A stretch of 24,487 nt of DNA, from positions 1 to 24,487 of IMG/VR virus record IMGVR_UViG_3300019884_000160; one strand, 5' to 3'. Position numbers and translations under genes: made by a program. This DNA is from a virus. The notes under the pieces were generated by a model. The model was given only the letters and a program-made list of their open reading frames with translations. It was not told where the DNA came from and made no database searches. The first letter of the stretch is position 1. Each line of letters opens with the position of its first letter. Shown here one piece after another: positions 1,955 to 12,045 of the stretch.

Positions 1955-3976
1955 ATGAAACCAAAGGTGATCCACAAAGTTTTCATGGCGCAGGTAACGC
2001 GCGCCGCCGATGGCGACTTAGAATTTGTTTTATCTGATGATACCAAGGATCGCTTGGGTGATGTTATTAATCCCAAGGGTTGGGTCCTTGACAACTTCAA
2101 GAAGAATCCAATCGCGCTGTTCAATCACATTAGCAGTTTTCCTATCGGCACTTGGACCAGCGTCCGTGTCAAGGCGAACAGGCTTATTGGTAAGCTAAAG
2201 CTGGCGGCGCTTGGTACGTCTGAGCGCATCGATGAACTGATTCGTCTTGTCGATCAGGGCATCATCAAAGCTGTGTCTGTGGGCTTCATGCCGCTGGACA
2301 TGGAACCATTAGCAGATAACAGTGGGATTTTATTCAAGGAGCAGGAGCTCCTTGAGTGCAGTTTGGTGACAGTGCCAGCTAATCCGTCTGCAATACAACT
2401 GGCACGTTCATTGAAAACTTCCGACGAAACTATGGCTCTTGTGTTTGGCGAGCAAGCCAGTAAGACCAAGAGCGGTAGTGGCGACGGAATAAAAACTGGC
2501 GAGCAAGCCGGAACGATGACTGCGAACGAGATGCGCCACTGCCGTGGCCTCCCGTCGCTACCGAAAGTCACAAACATGGAAACCCTCAGTAAGCGCATCG
2601 AAAGTGCGCGGGAGCGCTTGAATGCGCTCAAGGACCAACTGACAAAGCATCTGGAAACCCTCGGTGACGAGCCGGATGATTCGGCGACAGAAATTACCAA
2701 GGAGCTTAGCAGCAAGATCGAAGTGCACCAGAAATCTTTGGACACTTTGGTTGAAGCCGAGCAGCGCCTTGGCGTGCAAAGCGAAGAGATTGATCAGTCT
2801 CAGCAGCAGCAAACTTCGGTTCCTGTGATCAGCAAGAATCAGAAGCCTTTTGCCGTTGCTGCACAGAAGGTAAAACCTTCGGACTATGTCATGCGTTCGC
2901 TCGTGGCTGTTGTTCTTGGCCACATACAGAAGCGCAGTCCGCGTGAAGTTCTCATTGAGCGTTACGGTCAGGACAGTAAGATTGACGAGGTCAGTAAAGC
3001 TGTTTTCAGCTTCGTCACTCGTGCCGCGTCAGCTCCGGCTGACACTACGACATCGGGTTGGGCCTCCCAGCTTGTTGAGACTTCCGTTGCTGACTTTATG
3101 CAACTGCTCATGCCAGCTTCGGTTTATCCGGGCTTGTCGGCTAAGGGTCTTCGCCTGAACTTTGGACGCAGTGGTATCATCTCTATTCCGGCGCGTCTTG
3201 CTACGCCTACAATTGCGGGATCGTTTGTCGCTCAGGGCTCACCTATTCCAGTGCGTCAGGGCGCGTTCACGGCGATCACCCTCACCCCGAAGAAGATGGC
3301 AGTGATTTCCACGTTCACTCGTGAGATTGCTGAGCACTCAACTCCGGCGATTGAGGGCCTGATCCGCAATGCTATCCAGGAAGACACCAGCGTCTCGCTG
3401 GACACGATCTTGCTGGATGCCGTGGCGGCTTCTGCGGTTCGTCCTGCTGGTCTTCGCAACGGTGTGACCGTTACGACTGCAACGGCTGGCGGCGGCTTTG
3501 CCGCTCTGGTCGGTGATCTCAAGGCGCTCATCGGTGCATTGATTACAGCAAGTAATGGAAACATTCGTAGTCCTGTCTGGATTATGAATCCAATCCAAGC
3601 ACTGGCGATCAGTGTTACGCAGAACGCTGGAGGTGATTTCCCGTTTGCTTCCGAGATCAATCAGGGACGCTTCCAAGGTTATCCGTTGATCCTGTCGTCT
3701 ACAGTGACGGCTGGCATGGTTCTCTTGGTTGATGCCGCTGACTTCGTTTCGGTCGAAGGCGATGCACCGCGCTTTGATATGAGTGATCAGGCTACGCTCC
3801 ATATGGAAGACACCACGCCGCTTGCCATTGGCACGGCTGGCTCTCCTAATACTGTGGCCGCGCCGGTTCGCTCGCTCTACCAGACTGACTCCTTGGCTTT
3901 GAGAATGATCATGGACGTCAACTGGGCGATGCGCCGCACTGGCGTTGTTGCTTGGACGCAAGCTGTTACTTGGTAA
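1955..3976 (+). CDS. Prohead protease-major capsid protein fusion
   Basis: A single 673-residue frame joins two proteins that HK97 makes separately. Residues 1 to about 155 look like the S78/U35 prohead protease: FNHISSFPIG with candidate catalytic H58, AVSVGF with candidate S108, and the family-typical ELLECSLVTVPANPSA at 131-146. Residues about 205-285 are charged and helix-forming (KRIESARERLNALKDQL), as expected of a scaffold (delta-like) segment. From about 295 to the end the sequence reads as an HK97-fold capsid subunit (TSGWASQLVE, STFTREIAEHS, a conserved-looking DVNWAMRR near the C-terminus). The protease would cut itself and the scaffold away during maturation. GAGGA lies 10 nt before the ATG. 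Internal ATGs near 2517 and 2575 could give free capsid protein but lack strong binding sites. Confidence 0.9.
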   Translation: MKPKVIHKVFMAQVTRAADGDLEFVLSDDTKDRLGDVINPKGWVLDNFKKNPIALFNHISSFPIGTWTSVRVKANRLIGKLKLAALGTSERIDELIRLVDQGIIKAVSVGFMPLDMEPLADNSGILFKEQELLECSLVTVPANPSAIQLARSLKTSDETMALVFGEQASKTKSGSGDGIKTGEQAGTMTANEMRHCRGLPSLPKVTNMETLSKRIESARERLNALKDQLTKHLETLGDEPDDSATEITKELSSKIEVHQKSLDTLVEAEQRLGVQSEEIDQSQQQQTSVPVISKNQKPFAVAAQKVKPSDYVMRSLVAVVLGHIQKRSPREVLIERYGQDSKIDEVSKAVFSFVTRAASAPADTTTSGWASQLVETSVADFMQLLMPASVYPGLSAKGLRLNFGRSGIISIPARLATPTIAGSFVAQGSPIPVRQGAFTAITLTPKKMAVISTFTREIAEHSTPAIEGLIRNAIQEDTSVSLDTILLDAVAASAVRPAGLRNGVTVTTATAGGGFAALVGDLKALIGALITASNGNIRSPVWIMNPIQALAISVTQNAGGDFPFASEINQGRFQGYPLILSSTVTAGMVLLVDAADFVSVEGDAPRFDMSDQATLHMEDTTPLAIGTAGSPNTVAAPVRSLYQTDSLALRMIMDVNWAMRRTGVVAWTQAVTW

Positions 3977-3983
3977 ACTGAGA

Positions 3984-4070
3984 TGCCGTAGGCGAGCGAG
4001 GGCCAAGAACCCATTGCTCAGCCTCCCGATGCCACTTGGTCTGTTGACCTTGCCTACGGTACTTTTTATT
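3984..4070 (+). terminator. Nested inverted repeats with T-run after the capsid gene
   Basis: An outer 10-bp stem pairs TGCCGTAGGC (3984-3993) with GCCTACGGTA (4052-4061; one G-U pair). An inner 7-bp stem pairs GGCCAAG (4001-4007) with CTTGGTC (4035-4041; one G-U pair). TTTTTATT follows at 4063-4070 and a ribosome binding site (AGGAGAAG) comes right after, for the gene at 4085. Position and T-run suggest a partial terminator or attenuator, or an mRNA-stabilising structure limiting downstream genes relative to capsid. The loops are long for a classical intrinsic terminator, so the role is inferred. Confidence 0.5.
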
Positions 4071-4084
4071 AGGAGAAGTTTAAT

Positions 4085-4393: not shown

Positions 4394-4419
4394 CCGGTTG
4401 GATACAAATGGAGGGCCAG

Positions 4420-4809
4420 ATGGCCGATCAGAACGTGTTGAATCAACAGGCTGCCGCCGCTGCCAAGTCTGCTGAAGAGCAGCGCAAGGCAAACGAGGAA
4501 GCCAAGAAGATTGCTGTGGAAGGTGTGGATGCGCGGTTGAAGGTGAAGGACGATCAGGTTCAGGCGAAAGCTGAACGTGAAGCCAATCTTCAACCAACGC
4601 CAACACAGCGGGAAAACGATCTTGCGCGCGTAGGTGCGCTGGACATTGATGATAAGGAAGATGATGGTTCTGAGGCTGATGCCGAGAATGTCAACCGTGT
4701 CTTGGCTGCTAAATTGCCGGGAGCAAATCCTTATGAGAACGCTACCAGTGAAAGTAGCGAGGAATCTAAGCCGAAAGCTGCTAAGCGCGGCAAAAGAAAA
4801 GGCAAGTAA
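4420..4809 (+). CDS. Charged low-complexity hypothetical protein
   Basis: I do not recognise this 129-residue protein. From the preferred start (MADQNV; GGAGGG at 4410-4415), the N-terminal half is Ala/Gln/Glu/Lys-rich and should form a helix or coiled coil. The middle is very acidic (DIDDKEDDGSEADAEN) and the C-terminus very basic (KPKAAKRGKRKGK). An in-frame ATG at 4408 overlaps the binding site and is less likely. Its place between decoration protein and methyltransferase suggests a head-related or accessory role. The stop codon lies six bases before the hairpin over the next gene's start, so its translation may control that gene. Confidence 0.65.
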   Translation: MADQNVLNQQAAAAAKSAEEQRKANEEAKKIAVEGVDARLKVKDDQVQAKAEREANLQPTPTQRENDLARVGALDIDDKEDDGSEADAENVNRVLAAKLPGANPYENATSESSEESKPKAAKRGKRKGK

Positions 4810-4814
4810 ACATA

Positions 4815-4848
4815 AATGAGCGCTTCTGCAAAAGCGGAAGCGCTCATT
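4815..4848 (+). promoter_or_regulatory. Hairpin enclosing the methyltransferase start codon
   Basis: Bases 4815-4829 pair with 4834-4848: 15 consecutive pairs, one of them G-U, around an AAAA loop. The ATG at 4816-4818 is buried in the stem base. The previous gene stops at 4809, so a terminating ribosome would reach and open the stem. This suggests translational coupling. No T-run follows on the + strand, which argues against a plain terminator. Confidence 0.65.
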
Positions 4849-5385
4849 CCTTCTGAAATCTTGCGTGCGCCGGTGGTGCCTGACTTGTTTGGTCTTTCTG
4901 TTGGTGTTTGTGAGAGATCTGGTCTCCATATGGAGTTCGGAGTGGCTACCGGCAGGAGCTTGAAGATAATCCGAGAGCTTCTGCCAATAGATATTCCGTT
5001 GTATGGGTTTGATTCGTTTGATGGTTTGCCTGAATCTTGGAATGGTTTTAAGAAAGGCTCTTTTTCAACAGGGCTTAGAGTATCTCTGGCGAATACCAAA
5101 TTGATAGTTGGACTTTATGAAAATACTCTCAGAGAATTTGTCGATCTTAATCCCGGTCTTGCTAGTTTTATTCATATTGATTGTGATCTTTATTCGTCAA
5201 CGAAGACAGTTTTAACCGAGTTTAGGCGGCGGATAATTCCGGGAACGATAATCTTGTTCGATGAGTTGTTTGGATTTGCTGGTTATGAGCAGCACGAATA
5301 CAAAGCTCTGCGCGAAAGCGGTATTCGTTACGAAGTCATCGGACGGTGGAATGCTTACCGCGCAGCAATTAGAGTGATCAAATGA
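4816..5385 (+). CDS. SAM-dependent methyltransferase, TylF/MycF-like
   Basis: A class I methyltransferase of 189 aa. The SAM-binding motif I is MEFGVATG (39-46), followed by YGFDSFDGLPESW (63-75), then HIDCDLYSST (120-129) and LFDELFG (148-154). These last two are acidic segments like those that hold the metal in TylF-type sugar O-methyltransferases. It lacks the DPPY/NPPY motif of amino-DNA methyltransferases, so a small molecule, sugar or glycan is a likelier substrate. It sits in the head gene module between a hypothetical gene and the portal, and its TGA overlaps the portal ATG (ATGA), so it is co-translated with the portal. No strong ribosome binding site is visible, and the start codon is inside a hairpin. 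Wobble positions look more AT-rich than in the genes at 7800-9200, hinting at separate acquisition. Confidence 0.85.
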   Translation: MSASAKAEALIPSEILRAPVVPDLFGLSVGVCERSGLHMEFGVATGRSLKIIRELLPIDIPLYGFDSFDGLPESWNGFKKGSFSTGLRVSLANTKLIVGLYENTLREFVDLNPGLASFIHIDCDLYSSTKTVLTEFRRRIIPGTIILFDELFGFAGYEQHEYKALRESGIRYEVIGRWNAYRAAIRVIK

Positions 5386-6741
5386 CCTCTAAAATTATTG
5401 ATCAATATGGAAACCCGATGGTAGCCAAACATACGGACGGCGCGTATCATGATGGTCCGTGGATTCTTCCTCTTACTGGAGGATATCTGCCACATGATGT
5501 TGGCGTTAACTGGAATTGGTGGCAGCACGGTTATGATTCTGTCAATTATAGTTCGTCTGCGATGGTTGAAGCCTGTGTGGCTGCATACTCGCAGACTATT
5601 GCGATGTGTCCCGGGGATCATTGGCGTTCACAGGGTAATGGCGGTCGTGAGCGTGTGACTACGTCCGCGCTTTCTCGTATTCTTAAACGGCCAAATACTT
5701 ATCAGTCGGCTTCCGACTTTTTACTTAACCTTGTTCGCAATTTGTATTGTGAGGGGGAGGCGTTTGCATTGGCATTGCGCAATAGTCGTTTTGAAATTCA
5801 AGAACTACACTTGATGAATTCTGCACAGTCCGGTGCGCGGATAGCTTACAACGGTGATATTTTCTATGACTTAGCGGGCAACGAAATTATTGATCGCTTG
5901 ATCGGCGGTGGTTTGATTGTGCCAGCACGTGATGTTTTGCACGTGCGATTGCATACTCCGGTCCATCCGCTTAAAGGCGTGTCACCGATTGTTGCTGTTG
6001 CTCATGATATTGCGATAGGGTCTGCGATGACGCAGCAGCAGATCTTGTTCTATATGAATCAGGCACGACCATCTACTGTTCTTACGACTGATTTGATCTT
6101 GACCAAGGAACAGGCGCAAGAACTTCGCGAGCGTTGGAATGAGCAAAGTCGCGGGTTGTCGTCTGGTGGTACGCCTATCTTAGGAGCAGGTGTAAAGCCG
6201 TTTCCTCTTTCTTCTTCATCGCGTGATTCTCAGCTTGCTGACATTATGAAGTTAACGGAACAGCATATTGCACTGGCGTTCCGCGTCCCGCTGCAAGTTC
6301 TTGGGATAGGTGGTTCACCATTTGCTTCTACAGAAGCATTGATGCAGTTCTGGCTCGCTGGCGGATTGAACTTTGCGCTCAATCATATTGAAGTAGCTTT
6401 CGATGCTCTGTTTGGTCTTAAGGGTCAACCTGATGAATATACAGAATTAAACACGGATGTTCTGCTTCGATCTGCCTTGAAAGATCGTGTTGAGTCATAC
6501 GCAGCTGGAACGCGCGCTGGTATCTTTGCTCCAAATGAAGCGCGCGCAGCATTTGAATTACCCGAGGCAAAGGATGGCGAAGAGCCAAGGATGCAGCAGC
6601 AAGATGTGCCACTCTCCTACGGGGCAAAGCTGGATCCAAATCCCGCTCCTCCGGCACCGCCGTCTCCTCCAACAGAACCTGAAGAGGATAAGCCGGACGA
6701 TGACAAATCATTCGACGCGGAAACAATTATCAACCGGCTCT

Positions 6742-6767
<26 letters not shown>
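5382..6767 (+). CDS. Portal protein (HK97 family)
   Basis: The portal is a dodecameric ring at one capsid vertex through which DNA is packaged and ejected. The 461-residue sequence has the family's course: an N-terminal NYSSSAMVEACVAAYSQTIA segment, LKRPNTYQSASDFL, a LYCEGEAFALALR strand, VLHVRLHTPVHPLKGVSPI, and a late AFRVPLQVLGIGGSPFASTEA. The C-terminus is an extended Pro/Asp-rich tail (about 414-445) ending in a short helix. It starts within the methyltransferase stop codon. In most HK97-like phages the portal precedes protease and capsid; here it follows them with three genes between. Confidence 0.93.
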
Positions 6768-11688: not shown

Positions 11689-12045
11689 ATGCTTTCGCAC
11701 AAACTCGATCGCAGCATCATAATTCAACGTAGTACGTCAGTCACGTCGCCATCAGGCGCAGTGACTGACGTGTGGGCGAATTACATTGAGCGCCGCGCGC
11801 AAGTCTTGCCGGTGCGTGGTGAGGAGCGTTTTTCCGGCGCGCAATGGGCTGCGAAAGAGCAGGTGGAGTTCTTTATTCGTTGGGACCCTGACGTTGCGAA
11901 TGTTTCTCCGCTGGACAGGGTTATATATCCGACCAATGAGCCAGTGACAGAAGCTCAGATCTATGAAGTTATGGCGGTACATGAAATTGATCGTCATGAT
12001 GGACTAAGAATAATGACGGCACGTAAAGCGGAGCTCGTACCTTAG
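11689..12045 (+). CDS. Head-tail joining protein (SPP1 gp16-like)
   Basis: This 118-residue protein matches the phage head-tail joining family. Visible pattern: LDRSIIIQRSTSV at the start, VWANYIERRAQVLPVRGEE, and a C-terminal YEVMAVHEIDRHDGLRIMTARK. It would seal the head beneath the connector ring and dock the tail. It begins 1 nt after the DUF2190-like gene stop. A strong inverted repeat (11734-11771) lies within its coding sequence. Confidence 0.85.
   Translation: MLSHKLDRSIIIQRSTSVTSPSGAVTDVWANYIERRAQVLPVRGEERFSGAQWAAKEQVEFFIRWDPDVANVSPLDRVIYPTNEPVTEAQIYEVMAVHEIDRHDGLRIMTARKAELVP
11734..11771 (+). repeat. Intragenic 11-bp perfect inverted repeat
   Basis: ACGTCAGTCAC (11734-11744) is the exact reverse complement of GTGACTGACGT (11761-11771). 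Within the 16-nt spacer CGCC/GGCG can pair (11747-11750 with 11755-11758, loop ATCA). The result is a long hairpin about 45 nt into the head-tail joining gene. It encodes SVTSPSGAVTDV, which is ordinary sequence, so the symmetry may be functional at RNA level or accidental. Confidence 0.6.

Follow-up and report, generated by a model that had tools for sequence, protein, structure and literature searches.

The hairpin at positions 4815-4848 of the window, the whole 24,487-base IMG/VR contig analyzed here, most likely marks where the highly expressed capsid genes stop and lowers the expression of the genes behind them. A phage head contains hundreds of copies of the capsid protein and 12 copies of the portal protein, and the location of the hairpin between genes for abundant and scarce head proteins points to an element that governs stoichiometry. 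On balance, we favor the view that it represents, in this phage, an operon-internal hairpin that the phage's family often retains just past a small gene, here called g133, and that sets the stoichiometry of expression. Comparison with relatives establishes, at the level of sequence, the position of such hairpins, their excess over chance, their re-invention with new sequences and their covariation.

The hairpin and its surroundings in the window

The genes of the window are arranged in the order TerL, fused protease-capsid, a small Ig-like protein, g133, methyltransferase, portal, and connector and tail genes. The features that surround the hairpin are as follows:

1955..3976, + strand, fused prohead protease and major capsid protein
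3980..4064, + strand, second operon hairpin just past the capsid gene, terminator-like, its 3' end carrying a CUUUUUAUU tract
4420..4809, + strand, g133, a small protein with the family motif PTPTQxEND (from sequence; homologues lie upstream of the portal in relatives)
4813..4815, + strand, second in-frame TAA between g133 and ATG 4816, abutting the ATG
4815..4848, + strand, hairpin with a 15-bp stem and AAAA loop, starting 5 nt past the g133 stop and holding the predicted methyltransferase ATG
4816..5385, + strand, inserted class I methyltransferase (Methyltransf_24 / TylF-like, Pfam-type match; residues 1-22 without detectable homology)
5382..6767, + strand, portal protein, its start overlapping the methyltransferase stop (ATGA) and its 5' codons without a hairpin

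The fold of the Ig-like small protein was guessed from sequence, and its PHROG matches are to virion or unknown proteins only. The g133 of the window has no Pfam or PHROG match, and the g133 family is an undescribed head-operon protein. Its longest open reading frame begins at 4408, but ATG 4420 is preceded by a Shine-Dalgarno sequence, GGAGGG (4410-4415). The family occurs as two tandem copies in loci L109, L134, L137, L150, L161 and L208. On another branch (L062, L112, L122-L125, L156) g133 is seemingly replaced by two protein types: one of ~125 aa (RRFVVPVTxDxxGxAEVxSPxLSGK), present once or twice, and a short one marked by "ETWYVLEDG".

The original prediction described a 15-bp stem with one G-U pair enclosing AAAA and the methyltransferase start codon, and this description is borne out by the folding. 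Arms 4815-4829 and 4834-4848 form 15 uninterrupted pairs with a single G·U (U4827-G4836), and the 34-mer folds with a ΔG of -25.5 kcal/mol versus -8.0 +/- 2.5 in dinucleotide shuffles (z -7.0; 0/200 as good). This is the strongest simple hairpin of the window, its score is reached by 0/100 whole-window shuffles, and its pattern occurs once in the whole record. Synonymous re-codings of methyltransferase codons 2-35 pair less well than the native sequence (p 0.003), and ATG 4816-4818 lies inside the stem, with an unpaired probability for G4818 of 5e-5 in the local ensemble. The predicted arrangement of the flanking genes was likewise read in the sequence: g133 ends with TAA 4807-4809, which precedes ATG 4816 by six bases; there is no Shine-Dalgarno sequence at a working distance from that ATG, the nearest purine run being AAAAGG at 4797-4802, 13 nt away; and portal ATG 5382 overlaps methyltransferase TGA 5383-5385. 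The portal start itself is without structure (z +0.3). An Rfam search with the hairpin returned sub-threshold matches only and nothing above the gathering score.

Hairpins past g133 in related loci

Counting the window, portal and capsid searches yielded 153 distinct loci, which lie on viral contigs and in genomes of Bradyrhizobium, Mesorhizobium, Devosia, Sphingomonas, Methylobacterium and related bacteria. A g133-like gene bearing the PTPTQxEND motif was recognized upstream of the portal in 101 loci, window included, comprising 83 short-gap loci (portal start -8 to +23 nt from the g133 stop), 16 long-gap loci (40-103 nt) and two, the window and L024, in which an inserted gene separates g133 and portal. 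In relatives without a methyltransferase, the gene directly after g133 is the portal. Using a score cut-off of our own choice, we found a strong hairpin in the 100 nt that follow g133 in 8/16 long-gap and 23/83 short-gap loci, together 31 of 99 relatives, compared to ~1-2% of control windows; 13 windows at other offsets gave 0-2/16 and 0-4/83, and shuffles gave 0 and 0-2. Across loci, hairpin density is 1.17/kb from the capsid stop to portal +70 versus 0.06-0.12/kb elsewhere, and the positional enrichment in relatives amounts to 10-20 fold. In the long-gap loci, the folding z-profile has its only dip past the g133 stop (mean -2.3), and the window profile falls to -7 to -9 at the same offsets. 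The window and loci L088, L089 and L092 share a stop-to-hairpin spacing of exactly 5 nt, and their arm sequences differ, save for the related pair L088/L089. In total the element is carried by 33 loci, window included, in 25 clusters, among them the prophage loci L105 of Aureimonas glaciei and L120 of Bradyrhizobium erythrophlei, and about two thirds of the g133-bearing relatives have no strong hairpin there.

In the short-gap loci the hairpin falls within the first portal codons, and pairing in these codons beats synonymous re-codings (p<0.01) in 18/151 loci compared to 2/150 for a control segment. Covariation, which the original prediction had proposed as a check, was detected on these equivalent portal hairpins: in five loci of common register, six pairs have changed on both sides, for a score of 0.564 versus 0.300 when shuffled and at most 0.157 in slid controls, values that are supportive and do not amount to a probability, as the five loci were picked for forming the hairpin and some are related. 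The methyltransferase itself offered no close homologues for such a comparison, the best hits having 45-47% identity over the core and no adjoining portal, and no near-identical phage DNA was found among 50,697 phage records.

On the portal tree, the hairpin labels require at least 21 changes in all, and the element has therefore often been gained and lost. The nearest relatives of the window phage are L022 and L209 (fork support 99). Their hairpin is formed by the first portal codons, a stretch that in the window phage contains none; the window hairpin belongs to the same distance class from g133 as theirs, but it lies inside the inserted methyltransferase. In L180, whose inserted methyltransferase is of the same Pfam family as that of the window with little pairwise similarity to it, a 15-bp hairpin is again found in the first codons. 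As the hairpin is located in the portal in L022 and L209 and in the methyltransferase here and in L180, it tracks g133 and not the methyltransferase.

The interval between g133 and the portal is an insertion hotspot, with methyltransferases of at least two Pfam families in four phages (window 4816-5385; L024 2443-2940; L143 about 2330-2927; L180 about 2404-2992). Almost none of the other portal loci has the gene here, and an insertion in exactly the window's form was seen once. The L024 enzyme differs from that of the window, and the first codons of the L024 and L143 enzymes contain no such hairpin. Loci L143 and L180 have an additional protein of ~335 aa, TPR-like as judged by eye (the L180 copy has no Pfam match), and a similar one is located ahead of g133 in L141. 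The methyltransferases inserted at this hotspot possibly serve virion glycan modification.

The methyltransferase start and alternative origins of the hairpin

The original prediction interpreted the hairpin as a translational switch, in which the stem would bar new initiation at ATG 4816, ribosomes terminating on g133 would open it and reinitiate, and the portal would follow by way of the ATGA overlap. As a full account of the hairpin, we regard this as unlikely. A start codon within a -25 kcal/mol stem, six bases from a stop and without its own Shine-Dalgarno sequence, does fit termination-reinitiation, and a ribosome covering the message to 4819-4822 would leave just 10 or 7 bp of the stem. 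In E. coli, start-site structures are predicted to prevent new initiation at coupled gene pairs (PMC6728339); the short stop-start distance and the structure over the initiation region are common to such pairs and to the window. Unlike these pairs, however, the hairpins of the relatives leave the start codon uncovered: some end ahead of the portal start, and others lie within the portal gene, beginning 18-58 nt into it, with one at 85 nt. Such same-site hairpins occur in relatives that have no methyltransferase, which makes the masking of a start codon peculiar to the window phage, and ATG 4816 is itself a predicted start. Judged from these comparisons, start-codon masking is probably not the reason for the hairpin's existence, and what stands of the switch is a plausible role for translational coupling of the methyltransferase as a secondary effect, provided that ATG 4816 is the real start.

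The true start of the enzyme is uncertain, since homology begins only at about residue 23-25 and the stretch that the hairpin encodes lacks conservation. It is thus conceivable, if improbable, that the arrangement is an artefact of annotation and that the hairpin is untranslated, with the enzyme starting at TTG 4861, GTG 4873/4876 or TTG 4885; in the relatives, a start 20-50 nt behind an intergenic hairpin is a common arrangement. However, none of these downstream starts has a Shine-Dalgarno sequence and none ahead of the conserved core is an ATG, while a start 6 nt past the g133 stop agrees with the 5-9 nt gaps of many relatives.

A DNA-level origin, such as a recombination scar or a moron boundary left by insertion of the methyltransferase, would suit an insertion hotspot but is very unlikely, as hairpins are present in loci without inserts, obey codon-level pairing and covariation, and have no sequence common to their arms. 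A functionless chance palindrome, for which one might cite the single sequence and the lack of universality in relatives, can be set aside as the least credible reading in view of the window shuffles and the positional enrichment described above.

A probable boundary element between capsid and portal genes

The preferred reading, in which the hairpin delimits the strongly expressed capsid genes, could operate in more than one way. The capsid-g133 mRNA may have its 3' end formed or protected by the hairpin, or the hairpin may be a leaky attenuator, and less message would run on into the genes downstream. Features of an intrinsic terminator are present in part: the stem is G+C-rich, with 8 G-C of 15 bp, but a U-run is lacking directly behind it (CCTTCTGAA, 3 T of 9), and a terminator scan did not call the hairpin on the + strand. 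The mean T count in the 9 nt behind the hairpin is 4.5 for intergenic hairpins versus 1.6 for controls, and 2.1 for those in portal codons, with at least 5 T of 9 in 5/8 intergenic relatives; the 3 T of the window fall between the intergenic and portal-codon values. Given the weak T-tract here and the absence of one in the portal-codon versions, intrinsic termination cannot be common to all forms. Placement is as expected for selective RNA processing and stabilization, where a strong hairpin stands at the 3' end of the upstream operon gene (here 5 nt past the g133 stop, z -7).

Two further hairpins of the window were considered. That at 3980-4064, with its CUUUUUAUU tract, has a folding energy of -36.7 kcal/mol (z -3.4 for 3975-4075), and the post-capsid position is hairpin-rich in relatives (28/94 tested loci, some with clear T-runs). 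At 11734-11771, in the first codons of the head-closure gene, there is a 17-nt inverted repeat, 88% complementary with a 4-nt loop (-30 kcal/mol and z -5.3 for 11725-11780); it was rejected as a second instance of the element, with no comparable hairpin past the same upstream gene in 12/13 relatives and an unrelated one in L216.

Several known systems resemble this arrangement. In Rhodobacter capsulatus, an intercistronic stem-loop lies between the high-abundance pufBA and low-abundance pufLM genes of one operon; this is likewise an alphaproteobacterial hairpin separating operon genes of differing abundance, with unrelated genes and sequence, and the case made here is from sequence. Phage T7 has a leaky terminator, T-phi, behind capsid gene 10. 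Unlike T-phi, the g133-portal hairpin is followed by a weak U-tract or none, and the closer counterpart of T-phi is the post-capsid hairpin at 3980-4064. Stem-loops at the 3' ends of abundant operon genes set the stoichiometry of the cellulosome (PMC4423207). The cip-cel operon of Clostridium cellulolyticum (PMC4423207) is similar in that hairpins lie just 3' of an abundant gene in an operon encoding one complex and hold orthologous positions in relatives; here, in contrast, the operon is a phage head operon, the hairpin may sit in the first codons of the next gene, and the evidence is drawn from genome comparison. A terminator several bp past a translated stop codon was nearly fully repressed in E. 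coli (PMC4824070). Because ribosomes would largely silence a terminator so near a translated stop (PMC4824070), protection of the 3' end (PMC4423207) is possibly the form common to all of these hairpins.

In the window phage, a methyltransferase gene would have been inserted directly behind the hairpin, with the result that its first 11 codons consist of hairpin sequence. Translation may thus form a second layer in this phage only. If ATG 4816 is the start, the methyltransferase would depend on ribosomes coming directly from the end of g133 and opening part of the stem, and this dependence would lower methyltransferase output and possibly also that of the coupled portal. Melting of the lower stem by the terminating ribosome would be consistent with reinitiation across the 6-nt gap, a stop-start distance typical of that process.

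Our literature search on hairpins at the capsid-portal boundary in phages found no relevant paper. More tentatively, we propose that an uncultured alphaproteobacterial phage clade possesses a sequence-free, position-conserved RNA element at the capsid-portal boundary that may set the stoichiometry of head proteins, move freely between intergenic and coding locations, and be re-formed inside genes inserted behind g133. How one operon supplies both the capsid and the portal at such different copy numbers is usually explained only loosely. This phage family repeatedly sets a hairpin at the boundary between the two, even inside the first codons of the portal, and an inserted accessory gene can fall under the same boundary element. 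The hairpin thus offers a defined, mutable site at which the role of RNA structure in the capsid-to-portal ratio may be tested.
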